Shown here piece after piece: positions 595-22,418 of a stretch of 64,000 bases of DNA. The notes under the pieces were generated by a model. The model had not been told where the DNA came from, made no database searches, and saw only the letters and a list, made by a program, of their open reading frames with translations. Every line of letters begins with the position of its first letter. Position 1 is the stretch's first letter. A program made the translations under genes and the position numbers. Origin of the DNA: Williamsia sp. CHRR-6 (GTDB lineage Bacteria; Actinomycetota; Actinomycetes; Mycobacteriales; Mycobacteriaceae); assembly GCF_018474015.1 (NCBI RefSeq), contig NZ_JAHCSG010000001.1, forward strand, positions 620,001 to 684,000. The letters are read 5' to 3'.

Positions 595-1140
595 TCAGCT
601 GCGTAGAGCCCGAAGCACCCGCTGGTGCACCTCGCCCACATCACCGATTGCATCGATGACGGTCACCTGCTCGCCGTAGTAGTCGAGCAGCGGCGCGGTC
701 TCGGAGATGTAGACCTGCATGCGGTTGCGGATCACGGCCTCGGTGTCGTCGGCGCGGCCACGAGCCAACATGCGCTCGACGACGACGTCCTCGTCGACCA
801 CGAACGACAGCACGGCGTCGAGCGCGGTGCCGTGCTCGGCCAGGATCTCGGCGAGCGCATCGGCCTGCTCGGTCGACCGCGGGAAGCCGTCGAGGATGAA
901 GCCGCCCGTGGCGTCGGGCTCGGCGACTCGGGCCCGGACCATGTCGACGGTGATCTGCGACGGAACCAGATCGCCTGCGTCGAGGTAGCGCTTGGCCTCC
1001 AGCCCGATCGCGGTCCCCTCGGAGATGTTCGCGCGGAACAGGTCGCCGGTGGAGATGTGCGGGATGCCGATGCTCTCCGACAACATCTCGGCCTGCGTCC
1101 CCTTGCCCGCCCCCGGCGGGCCCAGGATCACCAATCTCAC
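595..1140 (-). CDS. adk: Adenylate kinase
   Basis: Interconverts ATP + AMP and two ADP in the cytosol. The protein has 181 residues with the P-loop GPPGAGKGT at residues 7-15 and the DGFPRS AMP-binding segment near residue 84. The LID is the short form without zinc cysteines, as in mycobacterial Adk. It starts with GTG at 1140, overlapping the secY stop by 4 nt (GTGA), which indicates translational coupling. Followed by map. Confidence 0.97.
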
Positions 1141-2462
1141 TTCAGGAACCCTTCGTACTTGCGCTGCATCAACTGGCTGTTGATCTGCTTGACGGTGTCA
1201 AGGCCGACACCGACCATGATCAGCACTGCGGTGCCACCGAACGGCAGGTTCTGCACGCCGCCGTTGTTACCGATCTCGAGGAACAGGTTGGGCAGCACAG
1301 CGATCACGCCGAGATAGATGGACCCGGGCAGGGTGATCCGACTCAACACGAACCCCAGATAGTCCGCTGTGGGCTGTCCAGGACGGATGCCCGGGATGAA
1401 GCCGCCGTACTTCTTCATCTCGTCTGCCCGCTCCTGCGGGTTGAAGGTGACCGCCACGTAGAAGTACGTGAAGAAGATGATCATGAAGAAGTACACGGCG
1501 ATGTAGACCGGGTTCGAGGGATCCACCAGATAGGTCTGGATGAACTGATGCCACGACGGCTGCTCGCCGCTGCTCTTGCGGGTCAGCTGCACGATCAGGT
1601 TGGGCAGGTACAGCAGCGACGACGCGAAGATCACCGGGATCACGCCGGCCTGGTTGACCTTCAGCGGAAGGTAGGTCGACGAACCCCCGTACATCTTGCG
1701 ACCGACCATGCGCTTGGCGTACTGCACCGGGATCCTGCGCTGACCCTGTTCGATGAACACCACGCCGGCCACGATCAGGAGCGCGGCCAGGATCACCAGC
1801 GTGAACACCAGCCCGCCGCGCGTGTCGAGGATCTGCTTGCCCTCGGCCGGGATGCGGGCGGCGATGCCGGAGAAAATCATCAGCGACATGCCGTTGCCGA
1901 TGCCGCGTTCGGTGATCAGCTCGCCGAACCACATGACGATGCACGCACCGGCCGTCATCACCAGCACCACGATGATGAGGCCGAAGATCGACTTGTCGCG
2001 CAGGATCTGGTCCCCGCCGTTGCAGCCCTGTAGCAGGTCACCGCGTGAGGCCAGCGCGACGATGCCGGTCGACTGCAACAACGCCAGTGCCACGGTGAGG
2101 TAGCGGGTGTACTGCGTCATCTTGGCCTGCCCCGACTGGCCCTCCTTGCGGAGCTGCTCGAACCGCGGGATGACCACGGTGAGCAGCTGCACGATGATGC
2201 TGGCGGTGATGTAGGGCATGATGCCGATCGCGAACACCGACAGCTGCAGCAGCGCGCCACCGGAGAACATGTTGATCAGGGAATAGATGCCGGCCGAGTC
2301 ACCACGGTTGACCTGGTCGATGCAGTCCTTGACCTGGCGGTAGTCGACGCCAGGAGACGGGATGGTCGCGCCGAGGCGGTACAGGATGATGATCCCGATG
2401 ACGAAGAGGATCTTCCGTCTCAGGTCCTGGGTACGCAAGGCCGAGACAAAGGCGGAACGCAC
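1137..2462 (-). CDS. secY: SecY, channel subunit of the Sec translocase
   Basis: Forms the protein-conducting channel of the plasma membrane with SecE and SecG. It has 441 residues with ten hydrophobic segments in the expected pattern. The family motif [15 protein letters not shown] lies near residues 80-95. The GTG start at 2462 has an AGGAGG ribosome-binding site a few bases upstream. It is separated from rplO by 375 bp containing a hairpin (2764-2796), so expression may be partly uncoupled from the ribosomal genes. In Mycobacterium tuberculosis unrelated genes also sit between rplO and secY. Confidence 0.97.
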
Positions 2463-2837
2463 TAACTCCTCCTGTCGAACGGGCCGAAATCTGCGACTGC
2501 GATGAGAATGGACTCACGGGAGACCCCGGGGCCGACCCATCGCATCGAGACGTTCCGCCGTTCTGTTCGGTCGTTCCCGTCCGCGTTCGCGGTGCCGGGG
2601 GGCGACGATGATCTCGGTGGCCTGGGCTCGGCGAGCGATCCGATCGGACCGATCCCCGCCCCGTGGGCCGGACAACTCTTGAACTCTAACAGCGGCCAAC
2701 ACACCGCCTGATCGCGCGTGGAACGCGCACGCGACCCTTCGGACAAATCGCCCCCACCGACTCGGCGGGCGGTGTACCTGCAGTACACCGCCCGCCGTTT
2801 CAGTGACGTCGAATCATGTCCGAGGGTCCCCGGGGAG
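2463..2837. other. rplO-secY intergenic region
   Basis: 375 bp without a credible gene. The only clear element is the hairpin at 2764-2796. The secY ribosome-binding site (AGGAGG) is next to 2462. I looked for a secY promoter on the minus strand and found no convincing -35/-10 pair; TAGAGT (minus, 2688-2683) could be a -10 but has no partner. Confidence 0.6.
2764..2796 (-). terminator. Perfect hairpin between rplO and secY
   Basis: Arms GGCGGGCGGTGTAC and GTACACCGCCCGCC (14 bp, perfect) around a 5-nt loop, 42 nt past the rplO stop. There is no U-tract, which is common for actinobacterial terminators. It probably ends or attenuates the rpsH-rplO transcript before secY. An RNA-processing site is an alternative. 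Confidence 0.65.
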
Positions 2838-3278
2838 TCACAGCACCGTGGTGCTGCCACCCGCTGCCGTGATCTTCTCGGTGGCCGACTTGGAGAACTT
2901 GTTCGCCGAGATGGACACCGCGACGGTCAGCTCTCCGTCGCCGAGCACCTTGACCAACTCGTTCTTGCGCACCGCCCCCTTGGCGACCAGCTCGGCCACG
3001 CCGATGGCACCGCCCTCGGGGAACAGCCGCGCGATGTCGTCGAGGTTGACCACCTGGTACTCGACTCGGTTGCGGTTGGTGAAGCCCTTGAGCTTGGGCA
3101 GCCGCATGTGGATGGGCATCTGCCCGCCCTCGAAGGCGGCCGGCACGTTCTTGCGCGCCTTGGTGCCCTTGGTGCCGCGACCTGCGGTCTTACCCTTGGA
3201 CCCCTCACCGCGACCGACTCGGGTCTTCTCGGTCTTCGCACCCGGGGCGGGGCGAAGGTGATGCAGTTTGATCGTCAT
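2838..3278 (-). CDS. rplO: 50S ribosomal protein L15
   Basis: Late-assembling 23S rRNA-binding protein of 146 residues. The basic glycine-rich N-terminus ([18 protein letters not shown], about residues 21-38) and the [16 protein letters not shown] segment are diagnostic. Its start overlaps the rpmD stop by 4 nt. It is the last gene before the 2764-2796 hairpin. Confidence 0.98.
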
Positions 3279-3463
3279 GACTTCTCAACCTCTTCGACGG
3301 TGACGAGGTGACGGACCACGTTGATGAGACCGCGGTTCGCCGGGGTGTCCTCGCGCACGACGCTCTGGCGGATCTTGCGCAGACCCAGGGTGCGCAGGCT
3401 GTCGCGCTGATTGCTCTTGGTGCCGATCGTGCCCTTGATCTGGGTGATCTTCAGCTCTGCCAT
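3275..3463 (-). CDS. rpmD: 50S ribosomal protein L30
   Basis: A 62-residue protein with the L30 signature: the start [19 protein letters not shown] and then [14 protein letters not shown]. It sits between rpsE (4 nt gap) and rplO (4 nt overlap), the conserved spc order. Confidence 0.98.
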
Positions 3464-3467
3464 GTCG

Positions 3468-4142
<675 letters not shown>

Positions 4143-4194
4143 CAGATGGTCCTTCCGTTCGCGCTGAGCGCGGAGATCATGTGTGAGTTGGTCA

Positions 4195-4596
4195 TCAGAA
4201 CTTCAGGCCTCCCTCGCGGGCGGCGTCGGCCAGGGCCGCGATACGACCGTGGTAGTCGTGCCCACCGCGGTCGAACACGACCGTGTCGACACCGGCGGCC
4301 TTGGCACGGGCGGCGATCAGCTCGCCGACCTTGCGGCTCTGCGCCGACTTGTCGCCACCGGCGCTGCGCACGTCGGCCTCGATCGAGGACGCCGCGGCGA
4401 GCGTCTTGCCGGCCAGGTCGTCGACGAGCTGCACGTGGATGTGGCGCGAGGAGCGCTTGACCACGAGGCGAGGACGCTGCGGGGTGCCGCTGAGCTTCTT
4501 GCGAAGCCGGAAGTGGCGTCGGGTGGTGGAGCGACGGCGACGGGTCGAGACGTCCTTGCCGATCGGCTCACGCTTGACTGTGCTGGTTTCACTCAT
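4195..4596 (-). CDS. rplR: 50S ribosomal protein L18
   Basis: 5S rRNA-binding protein of the central protuberance. The frame is open up to 4638, but that would overlap rplF by 41 nt. I place the start at the ATG at 4596 ([13 protein letters not shown]), 1 nt after the rplF stop, giving 133 residues. Family features are the basic N-terminus, [20 protein letters not shown], and the C-terminal [20 protein letters not shown]. Confidence 0.96.
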
Positions 4597-4597
4597 G

Positions 4598-5134
4598 TCA
4601 CTTACCCGTCTTTCCGACCTTGCGGCGGATCTGCTCACCCTCGTAGCGGATGCCTTTGCCCTTGTACGGGTCCGGGCGCCGCAGGCGACGGATGTTGGCC
4701 GAGATCTGACCGACCTTCTGCTTGTCGATGCCCGAGACCGAGAACTTCGTCGGGGACTCCACCGCGAAGGTGATGCCCTCGGGAGCCTCGATCGGCACCG
4801 GATGGCTGTAGCCGAGGGCGAACTCGAGGTCCTTGCCCTTCAGCGCGACGCGGTAACCGACACCGAAGATCTCCATCTTGGTGGTGTAGCCCTGGGTCAC
4901 ACCGGTGATCAGGTTGGCCACCAGGGTGCGGCTCAGCCCGTGCAGGGCACGGCTGCGGCGTTCGTCGTTGGGACGCGACACCACGACGGTGCCGTCTTCG
5001 GCTGCGATGGTGATGGGCTCGGCGACGGTCAGCGACAGCTCACCCTTGGGGCCCTTCACCGAGACGGCCTGGCCGTCGATCTTCACGTCGACTCCGGCCG
5101 GGATGGGGACCGGGTTCTTTCCAATACGCGACAT
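4598..5134 (-). CDS. rplF: 50S ribosomal protein L6
   Basis: 23S rRNA-binding protein near the sarcin-ricin loop, 178 residues. It shows [23 protein letters not shown], and the C-terminal signature [16 protein letters not shown]. Lies 14 nt downstream of rpsH and 1 nt upstream of rplR. Confidence 0.98.
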
Positions 5135-5148
5135 TGTTGTTTCGCCCC

Positions 5149-5547
5149 TTACCAGACGTAGGCGAGGACTTCGCCGCCCACGCCCTGGTTGGCTGCCTGG
5201 CGATCGGTCAGCAGGCCCGAGGACGTGGAGATGATGGCCACGCCCAGGCCGCCGAGAACCTTCGGCAGGTTGGTGGACTTTGCGTAGACCCGCAGGCCGG
5301 GCTTGGAGACGCGCCGCAGGCCGGCGATGCTCCGCTCACGGCTGGGGCCGTACTTGAGGGTGACGATGAGGTTCTTGCCGACCTCGGCGTCTTCGGTGCG
5401 GAAGTCGGTGATGTAGCCCTCGCGCTTGAGGATCTCAGCGATGTTCACCTTGATCTTCGACGACGGGAGCGTCACCTCATCGTGGAACGCCGAGTTGGCG
5501 TTGCGCAGACGAGTCAAGAAGTCTGCGATGGGATCAGTCATGGTCAT
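5149..5547 (-). CDS. rpsH: 30S ribosomal protein S8
   Basis: Primary 16S rRNA-binding protein, 132 residues. It has the N-terminal [14 protein letters not shown] and the C-terminal [20 protein letters not shown]. It is normally directly downstream of rpsN; here rpsN lies 16.7 kb away, and rpsH is the first gene of a new transcription unit with its own promoter at 5718-5746. An ATG two codons downstream (residue 3) could also be the start. Confidence 0.98.
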
Positions 5548-5667
5548 GAGTGACCGTCAACCTTTCTCGTGGCGGTTCCCATGCAGCACGCTCGTGCCGG
5601 TTCCGTTGGTGCGAACACCGCGGGCCTGTCACGCCACGTCGTGGGCCTACTACGAAGCGAGTCATGT

Positions 5668-5691
5668 CCTCACCGGCTTGTGCCGGTGAGG
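5668..5691 (-). promoter_or_regulatory. Leader hairpin upstream of rpsH
   Basis: Perfect 10-bp stem CCTCACCGGC / GCCGGTGAGG with a 4-nt loop, inside the inferred 5' leader of the rpsH transcript about 120 nt before the start codon. In other bacteria spc-type genes are controlled by S8 binding to mRNA; whether this hairpin does that is unknown. It could equally end leftward read-through from the accessory segment. Confidence 0.4.
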
Positions 5692-5717
5692 GGCCGTGCC
5701 CCGCCAGTGCGATCGGA

Positions 5718-5746
5718 GGTATCGCGACGCACTGTCGGTCTTTCAA
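5718..5746 (-). promoter_or_regulatory. Candidate promoter of rpsH-rplO
   Basis: On the minus strand, TTGAAA (5746-5741), a 17-bp spacer, then GATACC (5723-5718). This is close to the housekeeping sigma consensus. It predicts a start near 5711 and a leader of about 165 nt. It explains how this block is expressed after being separated from rpsN. Confidence 0.6.
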
Positions 5747-5898
5747 GCTGTGACGCCAGAAATGTGTGGTCCCGAACCGGACGACTGCACGCGGCAGCCC
5801 CCGACGAGGTCCGGGCAACCCTGCAAGTGTAAGGAACCGCACGGTAAGGGCCAAATCGTCGCGGCTCGGCACGGACGTCGTCCGAACATGCGGCCACC

Positions 5899-5942
5899 GT
5901 GGACGCTGTGTCCACCGCGCCCCCACAGTCCGACGATCTCAG
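5899..5942 (+). repeat. Structured repeat element, copy 1 (left end of accessory segment)
   Basis: GTGGAC, 5 nt, GTCCAC (inverted 6-bp arms, 5899-5915), then 16 nt, then GACGATCTCAG (5932-5942). The same 6-5-6-16-11 layout recurs at 21160-21208 (opposite strand) and 22117-22165 (same strand). This copy has GTGGAC arms where the others have GTGGTC, so it is the most diverged. It covers the first codons of the predicted nuclease gene. Confidence 0.55.
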
Positions 5943-7026
5943 TAACGCGCGCGGTCAGGATGTCGCATGGCACGGTGGACCGGTGTGCGAACCGGAACCA
6001 CCCGCATGGCCCACGGTGCCGGTCGGCTCGGTCCGCCGAGTCAGCGAGGCGACCGCGGCCGCCGTCCTGCGTCGCGACCCGGCGCCGGCGGACTGGCCGC
6101 TGCTCATCGGCGTCAGCGTCGATTGCGGCCCCGCGCGGCAGCTGGTCACCTCGGTCATCACCGAGCTGCATCAGGTGGCCGTGCGCGTGTTCCCCGCGTG
6201 GTTGGACACCGCTGCGACCGTGGACGGCAGCACCGATCTGGACGTGGCGGCAGTTCGCGCGCTGGCGACCCGGTTCTGTCAGGAATCCCTCGACTACGCG
6301 CCCTACCTGGGCGAACTGGCCGCCACCGCGGTCACCGGCGCGGACTGGAGGGTGGACTGCGGTCTGGACCTCACCGCCCAGATCCTCGGGGTGGCACGGG
6401 TGCTGGCGCGCGCCTACGCACGGGAGTCGATCGTGGTGATCCTCCAATCGAACGAATCGCACGCGGTGTCGATCGCGGATCAGACCGCGCTCGCTCAGGC
6501 TGCGAGCTGGCTGGCCGAACACGGGCGGATCGTGGTGTGGCTGACCCAGTCCACCGCACCCGACATCGACCGCTTCAGCTGGCTGAACAGCCTGTCGGCG
6601 CATGCTCGCGCCGATCGCCCGGACGTAGCCGACGAGCCGACGGGGTCGGCCGTGTCCATCGCGCCGCTGCGGGGGATGCCTGCACCCAACAGCCCCGCCG
6701 AGCAGGCTCTGGAGCGGGCGCTGGCGCGCACCACCTGGGCCGGCGCGCGATGCTGGAACACACTGCTCGACAATCGATCCCACCTGGACGCACCGATGCG
6801 CATCGACGTGTTGTGGCGCGACGCCCGGCTGGCGGTAGAGATCGACGGCCCCGATCACCGCGGCGTCGACAAGTACGCCGCGGATCGGCGCCGAGACAAT
6901 ATGCTGCAACGGGTCGGCTACGTGGTGCTGCGGTTCACCAACGAGCAGGTGCTCGACGATGTCGGACTCGTGGTGGCCGAGATCGAGTCGATGGTCGCCG
7001 TCCGCACATCCGGCCCGACATCCTGA
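5899..7026 (+). CDS. Protein with C-terminal PD-(D/E)XK nuclease-like (DUF559-type) domain
   Basis: 375 residues, first gene of a three-gene operon. The C-terminal third (about residues 270-365) looks like a DUF559/Vsr-type fold: RIDVLWRDARLAVEIDGPDH gives the D303...E314-x-D spacing, followed by a KYAADRRRDNMLQ helix and VVLRFTNEQVL. This suggests DNA cleavage or binding. Residues about 60-250 have alternating strand/helix pattern with a hydrophobic strand SIVVILQ and a later RIVVWLTQ, like an NTPase core, but no P-loop is visible. The GTG start at 5899 lies inside a repeat element and has no clear ribosome-binding site; a downstream GTG (5983) is possible. 59 nt separate it from the next gene. 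Function is inferred. Confidence 0.7.
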   Translation: MDAVSTAPPQSDDLSNARGQDVAWHGGPVCEPEPPAWPTVPVGSVRRVSEATAAAVLRRDPAPADWPLLIGVSVDCGPARQLVTSVITELHQVAVRVFPAWLDTAATVDGSTDLDVAAVRALATRFCQESLDYAPYLGELAATAVTGADWRVDCGLDLTAQILGVARVLARAYARESIVVILQSNESHAVSIADQTALAQAASWLAEHGRIVVWLTQSTAPDIDRFSWLNSLSAHARADRPDVADEPTGSAVSIAPLRGMPAPNSPAEQALERALARTTWAGARCWNTLLDNRSHLDAPMRIDVLWRDARLAVEIDGPDHRGVDKYAADRRRDNMLQRVGYVVLRFTNEQVLDDVGLVVAEIESMVAVRTSGPTS

Positions 7027-7085
7027 CACCGCATCACCCCGACCACCTGACACCCGATCCCCGACCGACGAGAGGACGACGCCAC

Positions 7086-7757
7086 GTGGTGCACCCGAGG
7101 CTGACCGGAAACCAGAGCGCTGTGCTGTTCGTGCTGATGTCACAGGCGCGGGAGGTGCCCAACCCCGACCTCAAGACGCTGGGCCCCGAGCTGAAGAGGA
7201 CCGACCGCGACAAGCTCGCCGGGTTGGGGCTCATCGAGGTCACCAAGGGCCCGCGCTCGTCGAACATCGTGGCCCTCACCGACGCCGGATGGTCCTGGTG
7301 TGCACACGAATTGACCCAGGGTCCCCCCGAGCGCGCCACACCCCAGATCAGAGCGCTCTACTCGGTGCTGGGCGGCTTGGGCCGACACCTGGCTCGCTCG
7401 GATGCGCGTCTGTACGAGATCTTCACCGCCGAAGCCGTCGGCGCGGCCACCGCACCGGTGGAAGCGGTCCCCGACTCGGTCGACGAACGTGGCGCCACCG
7501 CAGATGCGATCGAACTCGTCCGCGCGACCTATCGGCGCCTGGCGCCGCACGCCGGCGCCTGGGTGCCGCTGGCGCAGGTGCGCGACGTGCTGGGCGAGCT
7601 CTCTCGCGACTCGCTCGACGCCGCGCTGCGCGACCTCGAGCGGCAACGCGAGGTCGGACTCATCCCACAGGAGGACCAGGCCCGGCTCACCGCGGCCGAC
7701 CGCGCCGCCGCGGTGACGGTGGGAACCCAGACCTGCCACCTGCTCTCGATCGCCTGA
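7086..7757 (+). CDS. Winged-helix-like protein of the nuclease/HerA operon
   Basis: 223 residues. The GTG start at 7086 has AGAGGA at 7071-7076 (9 nt spacing); the frame extends further upstream but only as shadow of the preceding gene. The first 80 residues (LTGNQSAVLFVLMSQAREV, then ELKRTDRDKLAGLGLIEVTKG and NIVALTDAGWSW) have the helix-turn-helix plus wing layout of MarR/PadR-like folds. A second helical repeat follows (about 125-205, LAQVRDVLGELSRDSLDAAL). It ends 3 nt before the ATPase gene, so it is tightly coupled. Likely a DNA-binding or adaptor subunit, not necessarily a repressor. I do not recognise a named family. Confidence 0.65.
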   Translation: MVHPRLTGNQSAVLFVLMSQAREVPNPDLKTLGPELKRTDRDKLAGLGLIEVTKGPRSSNIVALTDAGWSWCAHELTQGPPERATPQIRALYSVLGGLGRHLARSDARLYEIFTAEAVGAATAPVEAVPDSVDERGATADAIELVRATYRRLAPHAGAWVPLAQVRDVLGELSRDSLDAALRDLERQREVGLIPQEDQARLTAADRAAAVTVGTQTCHLLSIA

Positions 7758-7760
7758 GGT

Positions 7761-10700
7761 GTGTCGATGACTGATCCACGCACCGCCCTGGAATCGATCC
7801 GACTCAGCTGGGCCCCGACTCCCGACGACGTCTGGGAGCCGCAGTCGGCACTGCATGTCGACGGGCTGCACGACGACGTCATGTTCGATCTCACGCGCGC
7901 GGTCGCCGACGCCGAGGCGAGCGCGGCGGGCTCGCCGCTGGGGGTGGTGGTCCAGGGACCAGCCGGGGCGGGCAAGACGCACCTGCTGGGACAGCTACGC
8001 GAACACGTACAGACCCGCGGCGGCTACTTCTTCCTCGTCAAACTCCTCGACGGGTCGGACTTCTGGCGGTCGATGGTGGTCGGGATCCTCGAAGACCTCG
8101 CCCGACCCACCCCCGCGCACCGCTCACAGCTGGTGGACCTGCTCCACACGCTGGCCGGTGCGGCCGAGCTGGCCCCGACCGAACGCGCGGAGATCACCGG
8201 GGACGCGCCACTGACGCGTCCCACGCTGGAGAAGTTCATCACCGCCGTTTATCAACGTCACCCCAAGAATCGCCGCCGGTCGCAGCATGTGCTGCGCGCG
8301 TTGGTGTTACGCAATGCGCAGTCCTTCGAGCTGCAAGACCTGGGTGACACCTTCCTGCACCTGGATCCGGGTTTCGAAGACGAGCTGGCGCAATGGGGTA
8401 TCACGCAGGTGCAGCTGGGGTACGTGGAGATCGTGCAGAACATCTCCCGGTTGCTGGCGTTGGGCGGACCGGCGGTGGTGGCGATAGATCAGATCGACAC
8501 CCTGATCGCTCTGGGCAACTCGGATCGGCCCGAGGCCCGCCACGCCATCGAAGAGCTGGCCCACGGCCTGATGGCGCTGCGGGAAACCTTCAGTCGCACA
8601 GTCTGTGTCGTGTCCTGCATCAGTGCCTCGTGGAGCTATCTGGAATCGCATGTCGCGCGATCGGTGATCGACCGTTTCCGCTTGCCTGCGCCGCTGCAGC
8701 GGCCCGACGGCCCCGATTTCGGGCCCCGCATGTTGGCCAAACGCTTTGCCCCCGGCTACGCCTCGGTTGGATTCACACCCCCGCATCCCACCTGGCCGGT
8801 GGCCGTCGGAGCCTTCACCCCCGAAGTCCGCTACACCCCTCGGGAACTGCTGATCCGGGTGGACCAGCACATCAACACCTGCCTGCGTACCGGCGTGGTG
8901 GAAGAGCTGACGACGCTGGTCGCACCGCAATCGACGGCGCCGGTACCGACCATCGACCAACCCGAATTCGCCGATCTGGAACGACGATTCGACCAACTGC
9001 GAGCTGCGGCTGATCCATCGGCGGCACTCTCCGGCGACACCGAGGACGCCGTCGTGCCCGATCTGCTGCGGACGGCCTTCACGGTCTGGCTCGACCAGCT
9101 CGGCGGCGGCGACGGCGCCTACCGCCAGGAGCCGACACCGAGCAGCAAACCACCGTTGCACGGCCGGCTACGCACGATCATCGACCCCGACACCGAACGC
9201 GAGTTCTTGTGGTCGTTTCGCGCGGTCGCGAGCACCAATGCCGTCGCCACCCAGTCCCGAATCCGTAAGGCCGCCACGGCCGCAGGCATCACGACCGGGG
9301 TCACCGATCGGCGCCTGGTCCTGTTGCGCGCCACCGAGTGGCCCACCGGGGCGAAGACCCAGGCAACGCTCGAGGAGGTGAGCGCCGCGGGTGGGGTGCT
9401 CGCCCGCTGGACCGAGGAGGACGTGCGTACGCTGATCGCGCTGTCGCACCTGCTGGCCGAGCGATCCGATCATCTGGTCGCGTGGATTGCCCATCGCCGC
9501 CCGGTCGATTCCATCGACTTCCTGTCGGTCCTGGACTCGACCGACATCGACTCCCCCGCGCCCGACTCCCCCACCCTCGATCCCCCCGGCACCGTGTCCA
9601 GCAGCGTCGAGTCCAGCAGCGTCGAGTCCAACGGCGCCGAGTCCAACAGCGCCACAGCACCACGACCACCGGCACCCTCCCCTGATCCACAGACCGCCAC
9701 CGCTGCCACGAAAGCCCCAGCGGGAGCATCGATGCCAGCCACTGGACCGGTCTCGGTGTCGACACCGGCGTCGGCTTCCGCTGCCGACGCAGCCGCAGAC
9801 GCAGAAGCAGAAGCAACGGTCACCGTCGGTCGCACAGCCGCAGGCCCGGTGACGATGGCGCTGGAGGCCTTGCGTAAACACACCGCACTGTTCGCCGGAT
9901 CGGGTTCGGGCAAGACCGTTCTCATCCGTCACCTGATCGAACAGTGCGCGCTGGCCGGGGTGTCGTCGATCGTGTTGGACGTCAACAACGATCTGGCGCG
10001 CATGGGTGAGCAGTGGCCATCCGGTTCCCGGGCGTGGACCGATCTCGAACGGGCACAGGCTGATCGATATTTCGCCGGCACCGAGGTGGTCGTCTACACA
10101 CCGGGCCGCAGCTCCGGACGGCCACTCTCGTTCCAGCCTCTTCCTGACTTCACCCAGCTCCTCGACGACCCCGACGAGTTCGCTGCCGCTGTGGATTCCG
10201 CGGTCGCATCGTTGGCTCCCCGTGTCAACGCCGACGCCTCGACCGATCGAGCCAAACGACGCAAAGCGATGCTCACCCAATCGATGCGCTACTTCGCCCG
10301 ACGGGGCGGTGGCACCGTGGCCGACTATGCGGCCCTGCTCTCGGCGCTGCCGCCGGAAGTGAGTGACCTTCGTGACCCGGGTCGGCTGGCCCTGGATCTC
10401 GCCGACGGGCTACGGGTGGCGATGGCCAACGACACCATGCTCGGCGGTGACGCCGATCCGATGGATCCGGCCGCATTGCTCACGCCGTCACCGGGATTCA
10501 CCGCGCGGGTGTCGGTGATCAACCTGGCCGGGTTGACCACCGAGGACAAGCGCGACAACTTCGTCAACCAGTTGCAGATGGCGCTGTTCGCCTGGATCAA
10601 GAAACACCCCGCCGGCGACCGTCCCCTCGGCGGCCTGTTCGTGATGGACGAGGCCCAGAACTTCGCTCCCGCAGGTCGTTTCACCGCCTGCACGCAGAGC

Positions 10701-11036
10701 ACGTTGGCGTTGGCGTCGCAGGCTCGCAAGTACGGCCTGGGGCTCATCTTCGCCACCCAGGCCCCGAAGGGGTTGAACAACAAGATCCCCGGCAACGCCT
10801 CCACCCAGTTCTTCGGCAAGTTGTCCAGCCCCACCCAGATCACCGCCGCCAAAGAGGTCGCGGCGTCCAAGGGCAGCGAGATCGGTGACGTCGGCCGTCT
10901 CACCGCCGGGCGGTTCTACGCCTCGTTGGACGGGGCCGGATTCGTCGAGGTCACCACGCCGCTGTGCCTGACGCATCATCCGGCCAGCCCACCCACCGAA
11001 GAACAGGTACTCGAGATCGCTCGCGGTCAGCGCTGA
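7761..11036 (+). CDS. Large double ATPase: N-terminal AAA-type plus C-terminal HerA/FtsK-like translocase
   Basis: 1091 residues in two halves. The N-terminal half has a Walker A GPAGAGKTH (66-74) and Walker B AVVAIDQID (about 240), resembling STAND or BREX-type AAA ATPases. A Pro/Ser/Ala-rich linker (about residues 590-695), including a 15-bp in-frame tandem repeat, joins it to the second half. There, Walker A GSGSGKT (about 713-719), Walker B LFVMDEAQNFAP (about 958) and LIFATQAPKGL are hallmarks of HerA/VirB4/FtsK-like DNA pumps. Next to a PD-(D/E)XK protein this recalls helicase-nuclease pairs such as HerA-NurA and defence systems built on HerA. It starts with GTG at 7761 (ATG at 7767 also possible), 3 nt after the preceding gene. 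Its convergent neighbour is 25 bp away. Confidence 0.85.
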   Translation: MSMTDPRTALESIRLSWAPTPDDVWEPQSALHVDGLHDDVMFDLTRAVADAEASAAGSPLGVVVQGPAGAGKTHLLGQLREHVQTRGGYFFLVKLLDGSDFWRSMVVGILEDLARPTPAHRSQLVDLLHTLAGAAELAPTERAEITGDAPLTRPTLEKFITAVYQRHPKNRRRSQHVLRALVLRNAQSFELQDLGDTFLHLDPGFEDELAQWGITQVQLGYVEIVQNISRLLALGGPAVVAIDQIDTLIALGNSDRPEARHAIEELAHGLMALRETFSRTVCVVSCISASWSYLESHVARSVIDRFRLPAPLQRPDGPDFGPRMLAKRFAPGYASVGFTPPHPTWPVAVGAFTPEVRYTPRELLIRVDQHINTCLRTGVVEELTTLVAPQSTAPVPTIDQPEFADLERRFDQLRAAADPSAALSGDTEDAVVPDLLRTAFTVWLDQLGGGDGAYRQEPTPSSKPPLHGRLRTIIDPDTEREFLWSFRAVASTNAVATQSRIRKAATAAGITTGVTDRRLVLLRATEWPTGAKTQATLEEVSAAGGVLARWTEEDVRTLIALSHLLAERSDHLVAWIAHRRPVDSIDFLSVLDSTDIDSPAPDSPTLDPPGTVSSSVESSSVESNGAESNSATAPRPPAPSPDPQTATAATKAPAGASMPATGPVSVSTPASASAADAAADAEAEATVTVGRTAAGPVTMALEALRKHTALFAGSGSGKTVLIRHLIEQCALAGVSSIVLDVNNDLARMGEQWPSGSRAWTDLERAQADRYFAGTEVVVYTPGRSSGRPLSFQPLPDFTQLLDDPDEFAAAVDSAVASLAPRVNADASTDRAKRRKAMLTQSMRYFARRGGGTVADYAALLSALPPEVSDLRDPGRLALDLADGLRVAMANDTMLGGDADPMDPAALLTPSPGFTARVSVINLAGLTTEDKRDNFVNQLQMALFAWIKKHPAGDRPLGGLFVMDEAQNFAPAGRFTACTQSTLALASQARKYGLGLIFATQAPKGLNNKIPGNASTQFFGKLSSPTQITAAKEVAASKGSEIGDVGRLTAGRFYASLDGAGFVEVTTPLCLTHHPASPPTEEQVLEIARGQR
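9596..9655 (+). repeat. 15-bp in-frame tandem repeat in the ATPase linker
   Basis: Four tandem 15-bp units starting GTCCAGCAGCGTCGA at 9596, 9611, 9626 and 9641; the first two are identical and the last two diverge. They encode a repeated Ser-Ser-Val-Glu-Ser-like pentapeptide in the flexible linker, so copy number could vary without breaking either ATPase half. Confidence 0.75.
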
Positions 11037-11061: not shown

Positions 11062-12018
11062 TCACGAGCCCGGCGACTCCGATGCCCTACGCCCGACCAG
11101 GAACACGTAGGCCACCAGCATCGACAGTGCGCATCCGCCGAGCACCATCCGGATGACGTTCGGCAGCCCGCTGGGGGTGACGAACGCTTCGACGGCCGCG
11201 GCTATGAAGAAGAACGGGATCAGACCCACAGCCACCAGCAGGCCGCTGCGACCGGCCTCGGTCAACGCCGCACGGCGGGTGCGGTTTCCCGGCGCCAACG
11301 CCGCCATACCCATCCGCAGCCCCGCCGCACCGGCCAGGAAGATACAGCTGAGCTCCAACATCCCGTGCGGGAGAATGTAATAGAAGAAGACGTCGAGGCG
11401 ACCAGCCTCCGACATCACCGCCCCGGACAACCCCAGTTGCATGGCGTTGGTGAACAACACCCACACCGACGGCACGATCAACACTCCGGTGAACAGGGCC
11501 AGCACCCCTACCCACGCGTTGTTGGTCCACACATGGGCACCGAAGAAGGTGGCCGGATGTTCGCTGTAGTACCGCTCGAAGTCACCTCCGGGTCCGGCGT
11601 ACTCCTCGAGCGAGCGATCACCGATGGCCGCCGACCGGGCCCCCGGACTGGTCTCGACCCAAATCGCCATGGACGCGGCGACCAACAAAAACGCCAGCGC
11701 CACCCCACCCCACCAGCGGCGCGCCGAGTACATGGCGGCCGGGACATCCCGAATCGCGAAGTCGCGCAACGTGTCCCAGACGCCGGCGCGCACCCGGGTG
11801 ATCCGCAGCCGCGCCGAGAAGACGAGTGAGGCCAGCATGGCCACCGTCGCGTCGTCGAGATGGGCCTCCTGGGCACGCGCGAGTTGGGCTGAGACGACGC
11901 GATAGAGCGCGACCAACTCGTCGACCTGCGACCCGGTCAGCCGCCGCTGGGCGGTCAGCGCCCGCAGCCTCGACCACTGCGCGCCGTGGGCGACGATGAA
12001 CAAATCCACGTCGAGCAT
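11062..12018 (-). CDS. SpoIIM-family (DUF95) membrane protein
   Basis: 318 residues with a basic helical N-terminal region followed by about five membrane segments in the stage II sporulation protein M superfamily pattern. Typical parts are ARRWWGGVALAFLL, NNAWVGVLALFTG, and FFYYILPHGMLELSCIFLAG. Non-sporulating actinobacteria carry it next to RDD, DUF58 and MoxR genes (Rv3694c in M. tuberculosis), as here. It diverges from the RDD gene with only 19 bp between the starts. Its function in such bacteria is unknown; membrane-complex assembly with MoxR is inferred. Confidence 0.85.
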   Translation of the reverse strand: MLDVDLFIVAHGAQWSRLRALTAQRRLTGSQVDELVALYRVVSAQLARAQEAHLDDATVAMLASLVFSARLRITRVRAGVWDTLRDFAIRDVPAAMYSARRWWGGVALAFLLVAASMAIWVETSPGARSAAIGDRSLEEYAGPGGDFERYYSEHPATFFGAHVWTNNAWVGVLALFTGVLIVPSVWVLFTNAMQLGLSGAVMSEAGRLDVFFYYILPHGMLELSCIFLAGAAGLRMGMAALAPGNRTRRAALTEAGRSGLLVAVGLIPFFFIAAAVEAFVTPSGLPNVIRMVLGGCALSMLVAYVFLVGRRASESPGS

Positions 12019-12025
12019 CCGTTGC

Positions 12026-12031
12026 TACCCT
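12026..12031 (+). promoter_or_regulatory. Candidate -10 for a leaderless RDD transcript
   Basis: TACCCT fits the actinobacterial TANNNT -10 pattern and ends 6 nt before the GTG at 12038, so transcription would start at the start codon itself. No good -35 is seen. The SpoIIM gene starts 8 nt to the left, so the divergent promoters must overlap the genes. Confidence 0.4.
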
Positions 12032-12037
12032 TCTCCT

Positions 12038-12799
12038 GTGCATGTGACCGGCGATTTCACCACGGGTGAGGCTGTCGATGTCCGCATACCCATCGCGCGG
12101 GTCGGCACCCGCGCGATCGCACAGTTCGTCGACGGCTTCCTGCAGATGGTCGGCTTCCTCGGGGCGCTTGCTGTTCTCGTCGCGTTGTCACTCGACCCGG
12201 CGCTGGAGGCCGCGCTCGCCATCGTCGTGTTCGTGGCGGTGTTCGTCGGGTACCCGTTGGTGTTCGAGACGGTGACGCGCGGGCGCACGGTCGGCAAGTT
12301 CGCACTGGGCCTGCAGGTGGTACGCGACGACGGGGGTCCGATCGGGTTGCGCGAGGCCGCGATTCGTGCGCTGTGCGCGGTGGTGGTGGACATCTGGATC
12401 TTCGGGGCCTTCGGCGTCGTCGCCACCATCACATCGCTGAGCTCCGACCGGGGTCGCCGCATCGGCGACGCACTGGCCGGAACCACCGTCGTCGCGCTCG
12501 ATCGCTCGATCGGCGTTGCGCCTCGCCGGTTCCCGCCGCATCCCATCCTGCATCCCTGGGCGATGTCGCTGGCGCTCGATGTTCTCGACGCGCAGCTGTG
12601 CAGCGATCTGCGCACATATCTGCTGCGGCTACCCGACCTCAGTCCGCCTGCACAGTACGAACTCGGCACCGCCCTGACCCATGCGCTACAGCGGTCGTTG
12701 CGGGTCCCGATGCCGACCGGATACCCACCCGCGGAGGTGGTCGGCGCGATCCTGGCGGCCCGAGCAGAACAGGCGATCATCGACTCGCACCGAGTCTGA
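12038..12799 (+). CDS. RDD-family membrane protein
   Basis: 253 residues from the GTG at 12038; the frame is open further left but that part overlaps the SpoIIM start. The RDD domain covers about residues 15-150: VGTRAIAQFVDGF, two to three membrane segments, the TVGKFALGLQVVRDDG loop, and a final GRRIGDALAGTTVV. The cytoplasmic C-terminal half is helical. In M. tuberculosis the homologous position is Rv3695. Its 3' end overlaps the convergent DUF58 gene by 23 bp. Confidence 0.85.
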   Translation: MHVTGDFTTGEAVDVRIPIARVGTRAIAQFVDGFLQMVGFLGALAVLVALSLDPALEAALAIVVFVAVFVGYPLVFETVTRGRTVGKFALGLQVVRDDGGPIGLREAAIRALCAVVVDIWIFGAFGVVATITSLSSDRGRRIGDALAGTTVVALDRSIGVAPRRFPPHPILHPWAMSLALDVLDAQLCSDLRTYLLRLPDLSPPAQYELGTALTHALQRSLRVPMPTGYPPAEVVGAILAARAEQAIIDSHRV

Positions 12800-14075
12800 C
12801 TCGCTGCAACGCCGCCACCAACTCCAGCGGAAGTCGTTGCGGCGCAGCAGAGACGACGGTGACGCCGCTGCGTTGCAGCGTCTTGCGCACCAATTCCAGA
12901 TCGCGGCCTCCGGCGGCGAGCACCGCTCGTCGTCGAAGGTCGCTCGGCGTCGGCGTCGGATCGGTGGCCGCCACCACAATCACTTGATGGCGACGCGCCA
13001 ACGTACGCGCTGCGCCCGACAGTGAGACACCCTCCGTCGCAACGCGGTCGGGGCCGGCCGAACCGGGATCGAGACTGGTGAACCAGATGACGATGGCCCG
13101 TCGGGCGGGGCGGGCGAACACCTCGCGCACCACAGCACCAGGGTCAGAGGTGATCAGGTGCGGACGCAACGGTGCCACGGCCGCCCCCACCGAGGACAGG
13201 GCACGCGCACCGCGGATCCCGCGCACCGATACGCGGATCTCGCGGTCGATGCCGAGCACGTCGACGGTGTCACCGGCTGCAGTCGCCAAGCCGCCCACCA
13301 CCATCGCGGCCTCGGCGGCGATGTCGAGTTGGGTCTTGTCCCCGATCCGCACCGCCGACCGCCGCCCGGTGTCGATGATCAGCAGCACGTGCCGGTCGTG
13401 CTCGGGCCGCCAGATCCGCGTCATCACGTCGTGGCTGCGCGCGGTGGCCCGCCAGTCGATGGACCGCACGTCGTCACCGGGCACGTAGGCACGAACGGAG
13501 TCGAAATCGGTTCCGGTACCACGGATCGTCGTCGGGTTGGCACCCTCGAGCCATCGCAATGACGAGACCTTGGTGTGGACGAGTTCACCGTCGCGCACGC
13601 TCTCGTTGACCCGGATGACGGTGAGCAGATCGACGCGCCGCTGCACTCCGGCCAGTCGCCACGGCCCGGTGGTGCGCACGATCACCGGGCCAGCGTGACG
13701 GTCACCGGCTCGGGTGGGACGCAGCTGGGTGGCGACGGCGACGGTGTCGCCGGGCGGGATGACGAACGCGTGCTCGGCCTCACTCGCGTTCACACTCGGT
13801 GGCCAATTGTCGAACACCGTGCCCTGGGCCACCGCGGCGCCGGAGTTGTGCAGTTGCACAATCGATGTCGTGGACTCACCGACGGTCACCGCAGCGGCGG
13901 CGGCACGAGTGACCGTCAGCGACGCCCGCGCCGCCACCACGTCGATCGCGGCCAGGGCCACCACCGAGGTCACCCCGATCAACAGGGCCACTGCCATCGG
14001 CAGGATCAGCGCGAGGACGACGGCGACGGCGGCGGCGGCCACCGCGACCCACACCAGGCGCAAGGTGACGAACAT
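12777..14075 (-). CDS. DUF58 protein with two N-terminal membrane helices
   Basis: 432 residues: two N-terminal membrane segments, a beta-rich region, and then the DUF58 core with the hallmark FDSVRAYVPGDDVRSIDWRA at about 192-211. A von Willebrand A-like fold follows (LLIIDTGRRS at about 233). DUF58 proteins are coded next to MoxR ATPases and are thought to be client or adaptor proteins of them. Here moxR lies 16 nt upstream in the same operon. Confidence 0.88.
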   Translation of the reverse strand: MFVTLRLVWVAVAAAAVAVVLALILPMAVALLIGVTSVVALAAIDVVAARASLTVTRAAAAAVTVGESTTSIVQLHNSGAAVAQGTVFDNWPPSVNASEAEHAFVIPPGDTVAVATQLRPTRAGDRHAGPVIVRTTGPWRLAGVQRRVDLLTVIRVNESVRDGELVHTKVSSLRWLEGANPTTIRGTGTDFDSVRAYVPGDDVRSIDWRATARSHDVMTRIWRPEHDRHVLLIIDTGRRSAVRIGDKTQLDIAAEAAMVVGGLATAAGDTVDVLGIDREIRVSVRGIRGARALSSVGAAVAPLRPHLITSDPGAVVREVFARPARRAIVIWFTSLDPGSAGPDRVATEGVSLSGAARTLARRHQVIVVAATDPTPTPSDLRRRAVLAAGGRDLELVRKTLQRSGVTVVSAAPQRLPLELVAALQRVRLGASR

Positions 14076-14091
14076 CGGATGTGCCCGCCGC

Positions 14092-15108
14092 CTACACCGG
14101 AGCCGGGACCGTGCGCAGGATGCCGGTCAGAACGACATCGCTGAGGAGTCCGTCCACTTCGGCCTCGGGCCGCAGGATGAGTCGGTGCCGCAGAGCCGGA
14201 ATCGCCACGGCCTGCACGTCGTCGGGCGTGACAAAGGACCGACCCAGCAGCCAGGCGTGGGCACGCGCAGCGAACATCAGCATGGTCGCGCCACGCGTGG
14301 ACGCACCGAACAGCACTGGTGGCGCCATGCGCGTCGCCCGACACAGATCCACCACGTAGGCAAGGACTTCGGGGGCGTAGGTGGTGCTCGCCACCGATTC
14401 GCGGGCTGCGGTCAGCTCGGTCGGGCCAGCCACCACGCGAACTCCGGCAGCGTGCAGATCGCGAGGGTTGAACCCGGCCGCGTGGCGCCGCAGGATGGTG
14501 AACTCCTCATCCCGGTTGGGCAAAGCCATGTCGATCTTGAACAGGAAACGGTCGAGTTGCGCCTCGGGCAGGGAGTAGGTTCCCTCCTGCTCGACCGGGT
14601 TCTGGGTGGCGATCACCATGAACGGCTCGGGTAGTGGGCGCGGGGTGCCGTCCACCGACACCTGCCGCTCCTCCATCGCCTCGAGCAAGGCGGCCTGCGT
14701 CTTGGCCGGAGTGCGGTTGATCTCGTCAGCCAACAGCAGGTTGGTGAACACCGGGCCCTCGCGGAACAGGAAGTCGGTCTTGCTGGGGTCATAGATCTGC
14801 GAGCCGGTCACGTCGCCAGGCATCAGGTCGGGAGTGAACTGCAGCCGGGCATGATCGACGGCCAGCGCGTCAGCCACCGCGCGCACCAGCAACGTCTTGG
14901 CCACGCCCGGAACACCTTCGAGCAACACATGTCCCCGACACAGCAGCGCGATCAGCACCAGCGTGACTGCTCGTTCGTTCCCGATGACCGCCTTGGCCAC
15001 CTCACCGCGCACCGCCTCGAGCGCCGCCCGCGGATCGGCGTCGGACCGCGATGACCATCCCGGTGGCGCCTTCTCGATGTTCACCTCGGACGGGCGTGAC
15101 TCTGTCAT
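14092..15108 (-). CDS. MoxR-family AAA+ ATPase
   Basis: 338 residues. Walker A is LEGVPGVAKTLL (about 59-70), Walker B is LLADEINR (about 125), followed by LLEAMEERQV and the sensor region VIATQNPVEQEGTY. MoxR proteins act as chaperone-like ATPases that assemble or activate partner complexes. It is translationally coupled to the upstream DUF4129 gene (4 nt overlap) and precedes the DUF58 gene. The arrangement matches Rv3691-Rv3693 (moxR2 locus). Confidence 0.93.
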   Translation of the reverse strand: MTESRPSEVNIEKAPPGWSSRSDADPRAALEAVRGEVAKAVIGNERAVTLVLIALLCRGHVLLEGVPGVAKTLLVRAVADALAVDHARLQFTPDLMPGDVTGSQIYDPSKTDFLFREGPVFTNLLLADEINRTPAKTQAALLEAMEERQVSVDGTPRPLPEPFMVIATQNPVEQEGTYSLPEAQLDRFLFKIDMALPNRDEEFTILRRHAAGFNPRDLHAAGVRVVAGPTELTAARESVASTTYAPEVLAYVVDLCRATRMAPPVLFGASTRGATMLMFAARAHAWLLGRSFVTPDDVQAVAIPALRHRLILRPEAEVDGLLSDVVLTGILRTVPAPV

Positions 15109-16157
15109 CGGTTACGGACCCTTTCTTCGATCCAATCCAAGCGGGCTGCCACATCGGACAATTCGTCGTCGGTGTCGGGGACACTCGACAACGCCCACCG
15201 CACCCCCTCGACGTCGGTGGCCGCTGCGGTTGCGATCACCTCCACGAGATCGCCTGGTGGTGCGGTGGCGTCGATGCCCAGAACGGGGGCGATACGCCGA
15301 ATGGTGGCACCGCGCAGCACATCTGCGAGGTGGCCGCGATCGCCTGAGCGTCGGTAGAGCTCCGCGTGTCCTGCGGTCAGCTCGTCGGCGGGGACGACGA
15401 CCGGAAGGTCCTCGGGTACCGGCACCAGCCCGCGGCGGGCGACCGCGAACACCGAGATCGCCACCGCCAGTGCGAGCACACCGCTGCCCGCCCACACCGG
15501 ATCAGCGACCTCGTCGAGCAGGCTCCGGCGCTGCGGGGAGGGCGCCCCGGACTCGCGATCACCTGAACGGTCGCCGCTATAGGTGCCGCCGGAGTCGGGG
15601 TAGTCGCTCGACACCGACTGTGTCGGCGGCGACGGGGGGCTGCAGGAGGCGGCACCGGCAATCACGGCCCCGACGATGGCGACGAGCATCAGCGCAATCC
15701 ACAATCGATGCGAGACAAGCCAATCGGGCATTCTCCGGGAGGTCCGCTCGGCACGATAGTCGGCGGGCTCGTCCAGCGGCGGTGGGGCCACCATGGAGAA
15801 CCGGTCGGCGCGATCCATCGTCGCCAGGTCGGCCTCGGTGGCTGGGCGCGCCCCGTACACCACCTCGTCGAAGGTCTGCGCGGCGGCGGCGAGGGCATCC
15901 CGCTCGTCCGGGAGACTCTGCGCAGCAACCGATCCGGTACAGACGGCGGTTCGGGTCCGATCAACCGGAAGGATGCGCGACTGTTCTAGTCCGCGGTTCA
16001 ACGCCCGGAAACGTTCTCGCACCGCGGTGGGGAAATCCCGCTGCGCGGCCGCCGAATCCGCAGCAGTGCGATGCACCTGCGCCGGTCGAGCCGGCGCCGG
16101 AGGCGGCGGGGCCTGTGCGGTTTGGCGCTGATCCTGCGGCGCCCCCGGTTCAGTCAC
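15105..16157 (-). CDS. DUF4129/DUF4350-like membrane protein
   Basis: 350 residues. A Pro/Ala-rich N-terminus leads into a DUF4129-like segment (about 45-110: VRERFRALNRGLEQSRILPV, RTRTA and FDEVVYGARPA). Two membrane helices follow, at about 152-172 and 216-235, separated by a Ser/Gly-rich loop. The C-terminal cytoplasmic helical region resembles the end of DUF4350 proteins such as Rv3691. Such proteins accompany moxR/DUF58 operons; the biochemical role is unknown. It overlaps both neighbours by 4 nt. Confidence 0.75.
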   Translation of the reverse strand: MTEPGAPQDQRQTAQAPPPPAPARPAQVHRTAADSAAAQRDFPTAVRERFRALNRGLEQSRILPVDRTRTAVCTGSVAAQSLPDERDALAAAAQTFDEVVYGARPATEADLATMDRADRFSMVAPPPLDEPADYRAERTSRRMPDWLVSHRLWIALMLVAIVGAVIAGAASCSPPSPPTQSVSSDYPDSGGTYSGDRSGDRESGAPSPQRRSLLDEVADPVWAGSGVLALAVAISVFAVARRGLVPVPEDLPVVVPADELTAGHAELYRRSGDRGHLADVLRGATIRRIAPVLGIDATAPPGDLVEVIATAAATDVEGVRWALSSVPDTDDELSDVAARLDWIEERVRNR

Positions 16158-16957
16158 TGCGCAGCCCGCATGATGAGGTCCAATCCCTCACGGCGACATC
16201 GGATGTCGAAGTAGGCCGTCACCCGCACGCACGCCATCACGGCGGTGCAGAACTGCAGCAACACCGCAATCAGCACGCTGAGGGTGACGATACCCACCCA
16301 GTCGGGATAAAAGCTTGCCGCAACCAGGGGTGGTCCCACACAGCCGGCCAGCACCAGGAAGGCCAGCACCGCCCACTGGGTCAGCAGCAGCCCGACACAC
16401 CGCATACGCAGGTTGCCCACCAACGCCGCCGATCGTCGACTCGCGGCGCGAGCCCCGGACCCTTCCAGCAGCAGGACCGGTTGCGCCAGAATCTGATTGG
16501 CGCCTACGAAAGCGGCTCCCGCGGGTGCGACCACGGAACCGACACACGTGATGGCCAACGCCAGCAAGGCCAACAGTTGCGCAGCCATGATGAGCAGACG
16601 GACACCGGCGAGCTGCACCACGTTGCTGCGCAACAGCATCCATGGCTGCGACCACGTGATCGGGCGCCCGGTCACCGCAGCGGCGGCGGTAAGGGTGAGC
16701 ACCCCGGCGGTGAGCATCCGGAACGGGATGGACACCAGGACTGCCACCACAACCACCCACACCACACTGTCCCACCGGTCGCCGCCGGAGTCGATCCACG
16801 AGCTCGCCCACACCGTGGTGGCTGCCGCCGCGGCCATGATGAGCAGCATCGACCATCCACCCGAGCGCACCAACGCATACGGCGCATCGAGTAGTTCGCG
16901 GAACTGTAGTGGGCGGATGTCGCGCAGATCCTCCCGCGCACCACTCGCCATGGTCAT
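16154..16957 (-). CDS. Multispan membrane protein of the moxR operon
   Basis: 267 residues from the ATG at 16957, chosen because AGAGAG precedes it; the open frame reaches 17122, but that would run into the WYL gene. About six membrane segments are visible. The end YFDIRCRREGLDLIMRAAQ is typical of the actinobacterial membrane proteins at the head of moxR/DUF4129 operons (position of Rv3690). First gene of a four-gene operon with overlapping junctions. Function unknown. Confidence 0.75.
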   Translation of the reverse strand: MTMASGAREDLRDIRPLQFRELLDAPYALVRSGGWSMLLIMAAAAATTVWASSWIDSGGDRWDSVVWVVVVAVLVSIPFRMLTAGVLTLTAAAAVTGRPITWSQPWMLLRSNVVQLAGVRLLIMAAQLLALLALAITCVGSVVAPAGAAFVGANQILAQPVLLLEGSGARAASRRSAALVGNLRMRCVGLLLTQWAVLAFLVLAGCVGPPLVAASFYPDWVGIVTLSVLIAVLLQFCTAVMACVRVTAYFDIRCRREGLDLIMRAAQ

Positions 16958-17069
16958 CGCACTCTCTCTACTCGCCCGCTCGTGCCACCGGAAAACCTCA
17001 CGGCGACAGGTCTGTACGAGCGTACTAGCTTCACTCGCCTCAGTGGTGGAGTCACCCGCGAGGCGGCGA

Positions 17070-18137: not shown

Positions 18138-18170
18138 TCGGTGTCCTCAACTGCTGTGAGTCTTGCGCCC

Positions 18171-19583: not shown

Positions 19584-19591
19584 CTCCACTG

Positions 19592-19636
19592 TCACCCAGC
19601 CTCATCGGGGTCACGTGCTCCGATCAGGCTGGGTGA
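19592..19636 (+). terminator. Terminator of the DHA2 exporter gene
   Basis: Arms TCACCCAGCCTCATCGG and CCGATCAGGCTGGGTGA (17 bp, one mismatch) around an 11-nt loop, 8 nt past the stop codon, followed by TT. It separates this gene from the next exporter. Confidence 0.8.
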
Positions 19637-19739
19637 TTGCTACGCGGACCGGCCTCGTCGATGTCGTGCCGGACCGTTGACAGTTCGCTAGCGTAGCCAA
19701 GAATCACTCGTTGAGATTCGCGAACAGGACCAGCCTTCG

Positions 19740-21062: not shown

Positions 21063-21159
21063 TTCGCCATCCCGGTATCCACCGGCCACCACGTGCCTGT
21101 GGACCACACCGGATCTGTGGACAACTGCCTCGATCAATGACCTGTGGTCGTCTCGAATT

Positions 21160-21208
21160 CTGCTGAGATCGTCCGCGTGGCGGGCTGCCGTGGTCACCAT
21201 GACCACGG
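21160..21208 (-). repeat. Structured repeat element, copy 2 (inverted)
   Basis: Read on the minus strand: GTGGTC-5 nt-GACCAC, a 16-nt spacer, then GACGATCTCAGCAG. The outer 18 bp (21160-21177) are a perfect inverted copy of 22148-22165. Together the two 49-bp copies flank the AbiEi-DUF559 gene as inverted repeats. Confidence 0.8.
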
Positions 21209-21212: not shown

Positions 21213-21233
21213 CTTCTCAGCAGACGATCTCGG

Positions 21234-22232: not shown

Positions 22233-22418
22233 TCACCAGCTGGACTTCTGCACACCGGGCAGCTCGCCGGCGTGGGCCATCTCGCGCAAGCAGATCCGGC
22301 ACAGGCCGAACTTGCGGAACACCGCGTGCGGACGCCCGCACCGGTTGCACCGGGTGTAGGCGCGCACGGCGAACTTGGGCTTCTTGTTGGCCTTGTTGAC
22401 CAGAGCCTTCTTTGCCAT
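22233..22418 (-). CDS. rpsZ: 30S ribosomal protein S14, zinc-binding type
   Basis: 61 residues with the zinc ribbon C24-x2-C27 ... C40-x2-C43 ([17 protein letters not shown]) and the typical end [11 protein letters not shown]. This is the zinc-containing form (rpsZ/rpsN1). It is 1 nt after the rplE stop and is the last gene of its block; rpsH, the usual next gene, is 16.7 kb away. Confidence 0.97.

Follow-up and report, generated by a model that had tools for sequence, protein, structure and literature searches.

A HerA/FtsK-type ATPase operon in the ribosomal gene cluster of Williamsia sp. CHRR-6: a likely defence platform with exchangeable partners

In a 64,000-nucleotide stretch of Williamsia sp. 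CHRR-6 DNA (contig NZ_JAHCSG010000001.1, positions 620,001 to 684,000; hereafter the window), three co-directional genes, designated p1, p2 and p3, run opposite to the ribosomal genes around them and sit inside the 16.7 kb that separate rpsH from rpsN. A preliminary description made from the sequence alone had noted three tightly packed genes, which was confirmed by intergenic gaps of 59 nt between p1 and p2 and 3 nt between p2 and p3. The locus comprises the following features (window coordinates):

5899..7026, plus strand: p1, N-terminal alpha/beta domain and C-terminal DUF559 PD-(D/E)XK nuclease
7086..7757, plus strand: p2, probable winged-helix protein
7761..11036, plus strand: p3, 1091 residues, AAA+ ATPase fused to a HerA/FtsK-type pump
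8952..9554, plus strand: middle domain of p3, candidate inactive restriction-endonuclease fold (from the order of elements in the model)
5149..5547, minus strand: rpsH, left flank of the gap
22233..22418, minus strand: rpsN, right flank of the gap

The start of p1 possibly lies later, at 5983 or 6016. Its N-terminal alpha/beta domain (approx. residues 33-235), in which no Walker A motif was seen, can be read as a degenerate NTPase. The PD-(D/E)XK signature reported earlier for the C-terminus was borne out by the predicted fold; a Pfam scan assigned residues 302-365 to DUF559 and the catalytic D...ExD motif is present. Judged from fold and motif, the predicted nuclease looks active. Scanning p1 with PADLOC gave a weak DpdF match alone (E 0.0075).

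Two ATPase motif sets, the second of HerA/FtsK type, had also been proposed for p3, and both proved intact, the second inside a HerA/FtsK-type fold. The protein consists of an AAA+ ATPase (approx. residues 1-380), a middle domain (398-598), a disordered linker (597-683) and the HerA/FtsK-type pump (approx. 685-1091). In the AAA+ part, AAA_16 and AAA_22 exceeded the Pfam cut-off; an ORC-CDC6-like model gave no more than E 0.21, in one homologue. The pump shares its fold with HerA proteins, including matches to HerA-NurA complexes, and was matched by the PADLOC model mad8 (E 2.2e-20), which also gave weak matches to two other ATPases. Searches with the middle domain returned nothing significant in Pfam, among PDB profiles (best E 0.27) or in hhalign comparisons with AIPR and p1 (E 0.11 and 0.18, respectively; probability <1% in both). 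The alpha-bbb-alpha-b order of its elements in the predicted model is suggestive of an inactive restriction-endonuclease fold, for which the domain is a candidate.

No Pfam match was obtained for p2. RosR, a winged-helix protein, matched weakly (E 0.0035) among calmodulin rows that were taken as spurious, and one homologue matched a winged-helix family below the family cut-off (E 0.0011). From these sequence matches, p2 is probably a winged-helix protein.

Scanning genome contigs with p3 revealed 39 loci in Williamsia, Gordonia, Rhodococcus/Rhodococcoides, Actinoplanes, Herbidospora and one Xanthobacter. A plasmid collection added three p3 records, from Nonomuraea (11.85 Mb), Tsukamurella (a record with the ribosomal cluster) and a Methylobacterium plasmid (1.57 Mb). 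In the Tsukamurella record the trio is annotated as DUF559 protein, hypothetical protein and DUF87 protein. p2 adjoins p3 in 38 of the 39 loci (in L039 and L041 by open reading frame, not by tblastn; one is cut at a contig end), and in the remaining locus p3 begins at the contig edge. With starts picked by script, the two genes overlap by 4 nt in 32/40 rows and by 1 nt in 6/40. p1 was found in 31 of the 39 loci, absent in six and undeterminable in two. The genes were adjacent across loci and not scattered, scattering being one of the outcomes that the preliminary description had named as refuting. What is conserved as a unit is the tightly spaced p2-p3 pair and not the trio; p1 is exchangeable or missing. 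As a further observation, L035 (positions 610-9579) carries two tandem p2-p3 copies behind a single p1 in its rplN-rpsQ gap.

Other genes take the place of p1. An AIPR-type gene (Pfam AIPR in L020 and L024, by similarity in L042) lies directly 3' of p3 in three of the six loci devoid of p1, at a distance of 18 nt, 19 nt or overlapping; the L024 gene corresponds to PADLOC AbiU (E 9e-114). The N-terminus of AIPR is termed a HEPN domain in PMC3506569; from the motif (D56, D60, Q95xK97) it may be read as PD-(D/E)XK. In 14 stretches around p2 matches from an order-level search, p2 and p3 were adjacent throughout. p1 was present in four of them (L096, L100, L101 and L103; DUF559 confirmed for L096 and L103). 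Four others (L093, L094, L098 and L105) contain a TIR protein and a ParA-like protein tightly upstream, assigned by Pfam in L093 and L105 and by alike N-termini in L094 and L098; a CATASP region exceeded the cut-off in L093 only. In another four (L095, L097, L099 and L102), a Trypco1 gene and a large NTPase-WD40 gene are situated 175-375 nt away in divergent orientation, assigned by Pfam in L095 and L102 and by alike N-termini in L097 and L099. The trypsin domain reached significance in L095 but not in L102, and the same trypsin-STAND-WD40 pair, with trypsin domain, occurs in L017 of the 39-locus set. No recognised partner was found in L104 and L106. Among five class-level loci (L115-L119), p1 was present in four and missing in L116, whose called p2 and p3 stand 1.2 kb apart. 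Two side observations concern the TIR loci: a gene of 1115-1156 codons, possibly a further component, follows p3 in L093, L094 and L098 (overlapping or after 53 nt; no Pfam match in L093 and L098, the two tested), and a SEFIR gene lies near the p3 locus in L093.

Partner types were compared with a quick p3 tree of 35 chosen rows (DUF559 19, trypsin 5, none 5, TIR with ParA 4, AbiU 2). The AbiU, TIR-ParA and trypsin types each formed a single clade, while 'none' required three changes and DUF559 four. All labels together required six changes versus a mean of 15.2 after shuffling, and none of 200 shuffles was as low. As the commonest and widest type, DUF559 is probably the older partner.

The distribution of these genes is patchy. 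Full-length p3 was found in 4/8 genomes of the genus, two more showing weak partial matches only. With p2 as query, matches were obtained in 16/81 genomes of the family (7/31 genera) and 18/101 of the order (8/46 genera), and with a p2 profile in 8/118 genomes of the class. Four genus relatives have empty sites with the order rpsH-DUF4262-rpsN, devoid of p1, p2 and p3. Two genus relatives carry the trio in the rpsH-rpsN gap and one beyond rplN, in a stretch that does not reach rpsQ. Ribosomal protein genes were present in the fetched stretch at 25 of the 39 loci, always antisense to the trio, and 14 showed none. As far as flanks were visible, these 25 occupy either the rplN-rpsQ gap or the part of the rpsH-rpsN gap next to rpsN. 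In 14 further stretches, which partly repeat earlier genomes (L085/L033, L088/L008, L089/L034), p2 and p3 were found in 13 (the other ends inside p2), p1 in 11 and ribosomal neighbours in ten.

On the p3 tree, the five rpsH-rpsN rows formed one clade (100/100) and 21 rplN-rpsQ rows grouped at 90/63. Two further rows from the rplN-rpsQ gap, that of Tsukamurella and the first copy of L035, fall outside the 21-row group, so that this gap was probably entered more than once. The first L035 copy is perhaps a second arrival, as it groups with R. phenolicus and R. yananensis (93/75). L009 and L035 (Rhodococcus sp. IEGM records) are labelled Cyanobacteriota in the tree, probably due to a label or assembly mix-up. 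If the operon is indeed a defence family, gaps within the S10-spc ribosomal cluster emerge as places where this order acquires genes. A vertically inherited housekeeping role was also considered and is made unlikely by the patchy distribution and the empty sites.

The C-terminal domain of p2 (approx. residues 136-223; window 7488-7757) is by eye its best conserved part, and it is found again in minor head, portal/head and tape-measure proteins of phages as well as in plasmid proteins (L120:9371-9655, L122:8001-8216, L125, L127 and L131). A p2 profile matched an 848-aa protein of L120 with its C-terminal part (E 7.7e-32). Over its residues 5-379 the L120 protein matches MuF-like minor capsid proteins from Streptomyces phages, and the neighbouring genes, judged by their N-termini, look like capsid, portal and terminase genes. 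A hidden Markov model of the p2 C-terminus alone scored 107 bits on this protein, 75 bits on an uncharacterised 2097-aa L121 protein and 75 bits on the tape measure protein of Gordonia phage Mollymur, compared with at most 11.4 bits in 900 shuffles. Mollymur, in two records, was the only phage matched in a single-sequence search of 50,697 phage records. Plasmid records gave nine matches, annotated as helicase, HTH protein or hypothetical and including the Nonomuraea p2 itself. All nine plasmids are typed as non-mobilizable in PLSDB; a TraM-recognition gene lies near one of the helicase genes. In viral contigs, nine of 60 pattern matches were confirmed; of these nine open reading frames (one partial), four matched head-and-packaging families, one matched an ADP-ribosyltransferase toxin family and four had no match. 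Carriers of the domain may travel or act with incoming DNA, though not all of them are known to enter cells together with it.

Taken together, we consider p1-p2-p3 a module directed against invaders and passed on horizontally, in which an ATP-driven defence platform senses DNA and its effectors can be exchanged, and give this reading a probability of roughly 0.62. The defence role foreseen in the preliminary description is indicated indirectly by the exchange of partners (AbiU, TIR, trypsin-STAND), the patchy distribution and one Wadjet neighbour. The Wadjet neighbour is found at L090, where p2-p3 lie approx. 4 kb from an 869-aa open reading frame that matches positions 253-1116 of the 1117-position JetC model, and also near a helicase-like gene (PDC-S68 and RecD-type models). 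In addition, the trypsin protein of L017 matches RT-Protease_XI (E 8.5e-7), and the Xanthobacter copy has a CHAT-domain gene upstream.

Gene order, predicted folds, active-site residues that are invariant and the exchange of partners are observed; from folds and motifs we infer a working model. A ring of p3 would load onto incoming double-stranded DNA with the help of the p3 AAA+ domain and the p2 winged helices, and the HerA part of p3 would pump the loaded DNA. Loading or stalling on foreign DNA would license the partner effector. In Williamsia sp. CHRR-6 this would be p1, whose degenerate NTPase-like half might dock on p3 while the DUF559 half cuts DNA. The occurrence of TIR, trypsin-STAND and AbiU partners in other lineages suggests that the p2-p3 core acts as sensor or trigger and is not merely a feeding pump.

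Several observations weigh against a defence module. Five of nine neighbours of relatives matched no PADLOC model, and most other neighbours examined were metabolic or unrelated; as the scanned neighbours were hand-picked and lacked a matched control, these counts are no measure of defence enrichment. The sole defence-like gene among the few neighbours scanned in the window, encoding an AbiEi_4 domain, is 10 kb away. No p3 relatives were found in phage records or viral contigs. The trypsin pair is divergent from p2-p3, several p2-p3 copies have no recognised partner, and most Rhodococcus/Rhodococcoides loci keep one ribosomal-gap site across the clade, a pattern also compatible with a stable chromosomal role.

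A special form of the defence reading, whose odds overlap with it, sees p1 as a suicide DNase that acts by abortive infection instead of clearing captured DNA. TIR, trypsin-STAND-WD40 and AbiU proteins are typical death-type effectors, and all three adjoin the same core. DndFGH has a HerA domain of like fold and, according to PMC10853773, restricts invading DNA, which argues the other way, and we hold abortive infection as a tentative possibility. An extension to the p2 C-terminal domain is rather unlikely: p2-p3 would be a plug-and-play guard of DNA entry into which any of four unrelated effector types can be plugged, and the system would recognise a mark on DNA or nucleoprotein that the phage and plasmid proteins recognise too, or the phage copies would be decoys that block p2 on p3. 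If the defence reading is right, the domain common to p2, virion and plasmid proteins is a concrete candidate for the core's recognition target or for a phage countermeasure.

Alternatively, p3 might feed broken chromosomal ends to the p1 nuclease for resection, as in HerA-NurA-like DNA repair. The HerA fold, the nuclease partner in most loci and the stable position in most Rhodococcus loci are compatible with such a role. It appears distinctly improbable given the patchy distribution in genus, family and order, the loci that lack the nuclease or have TIR, AbiU or protease partners in its stead, and the Pfam scan of p1, which gave DUF559 and no NurA family (NurA elsewhere in the genome was not searched for). 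That the operon is a remnant, stranded in the ribosomal gap, of the machinery by which a mobile element transfers or maintains itself is improbable, the AbiU and TIR partner swaps being defence-like (relaxases, integrases and element ends around the copies were not searched for).

Further genes of the window were recorded. SpoIIM, MoxR and other genes occupy 11062-22055 of the rpsH-rpsN gap, which measures approx. 1.8-2.9 kb in four relatives, so that its contents vary. The AbiEi_4 antitoxin-domain protein (273 aa; 21234-22055, minus strand), with a weak match to REase MTES_1575, adjoins rpsN. A TerD-AIM24 fusion (28023-29414, plus strand) lies within the rplN-rpsQ gap, and the same fusion adjoins the trio in L029, L010 and L028. 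An open frame of more than 5000 aa (47819-63997, minus strand) leaves the window and contains nonribosomal peptide synthetase modules in the 1999 aa tested.

The preliminary description had not recognised this combination of domains. No paper on the operon was found in the literature searched, whose coverage excludes preprints and most subscription papers; such a combination of parts is described in PMC10853773, namely in HerA/FtsK capture systems proposed to intercept invading DNA, which combine an ORC/CDC6 ATPase, HerA/FtsK, an inactive and an active restriction endonuclease and a winged helix-turn-helix in one or several polypeptides. Other HerA-based systems were compared as well; as far as the comparison went, DndFGH, MADS and BREX-related capture have the pump in common with the operon. 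HerA-DUF4297, HerA-Sir2 and HerA-NurA share the pump, of the same fold, and an effector, but p3 carries a second AAA+ ATPase in the same chain as HerA and pairs with p2. With DndFGH, in which HerA forms the C-terminus of DndH, similarity is confined to two DndH models that matched over approx. 85 positions close to their C-termini (E 0.033 and 0.081); judged from PADLOC profiles alone, p3 does not show the DndH architecture preceding the HerA domain. MADS, whose other mad genes include one for a methyltransferase, shares the HerA half through mad8; in the PADLOC scan, which covered p1-p3 but not their surroundings, no other mad model matched. BREX-related capture (BRC; PMC12839542) combines HerA, an ORC/Cdc6-type ATPase, winged helices and an effector, a plan that p1-p3 resemble; its PglZ, DUF6079 and DUF4007 were not among the families listed for p1-p3 (for p3 the best 25 of 29; neighbours not searched).

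The HerA/FtsK capture class resembles p1-p2-p3 in the AAA+ ATPase, HerA/FtsK, the active-looking PD-(D/E)XK nuclease, the probable winged helices, the mobile neighbourhoods and the spread of domains over single or several polypeptides. It differs in having an inactive restriction endonuclease between AAA+ and a C-terminal winged helix-turn-helix, a domain only suggested in p3. Its active restriction endonuclease comes from one of two named families, of which the active-looking DUF559 nuclease here may or may not be a member. DUF559, AIPR and actinobacteria are unnamed in the main text of PMC10853773 (word counts, supplements excluded). The plan fits, but four class features (the ORC/CDC6 type of the ATPase, the inactive restriction endonuclease, the family of the active one and the winged helix-turn-helix) are candidates only in p1-p3, so that the operon is taken to work like this class and is probably a variant of it, not a proven member. 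If so, it represents a mainly actinobacterial HerA-based defence family in which one ATPase core serves at least four partner types, namely nuclease, AbiU, TIR with ParA-like protein and protease-STAND, and effector triggering by HerA/FtsK capture systems becomes testable through partners that share one core.
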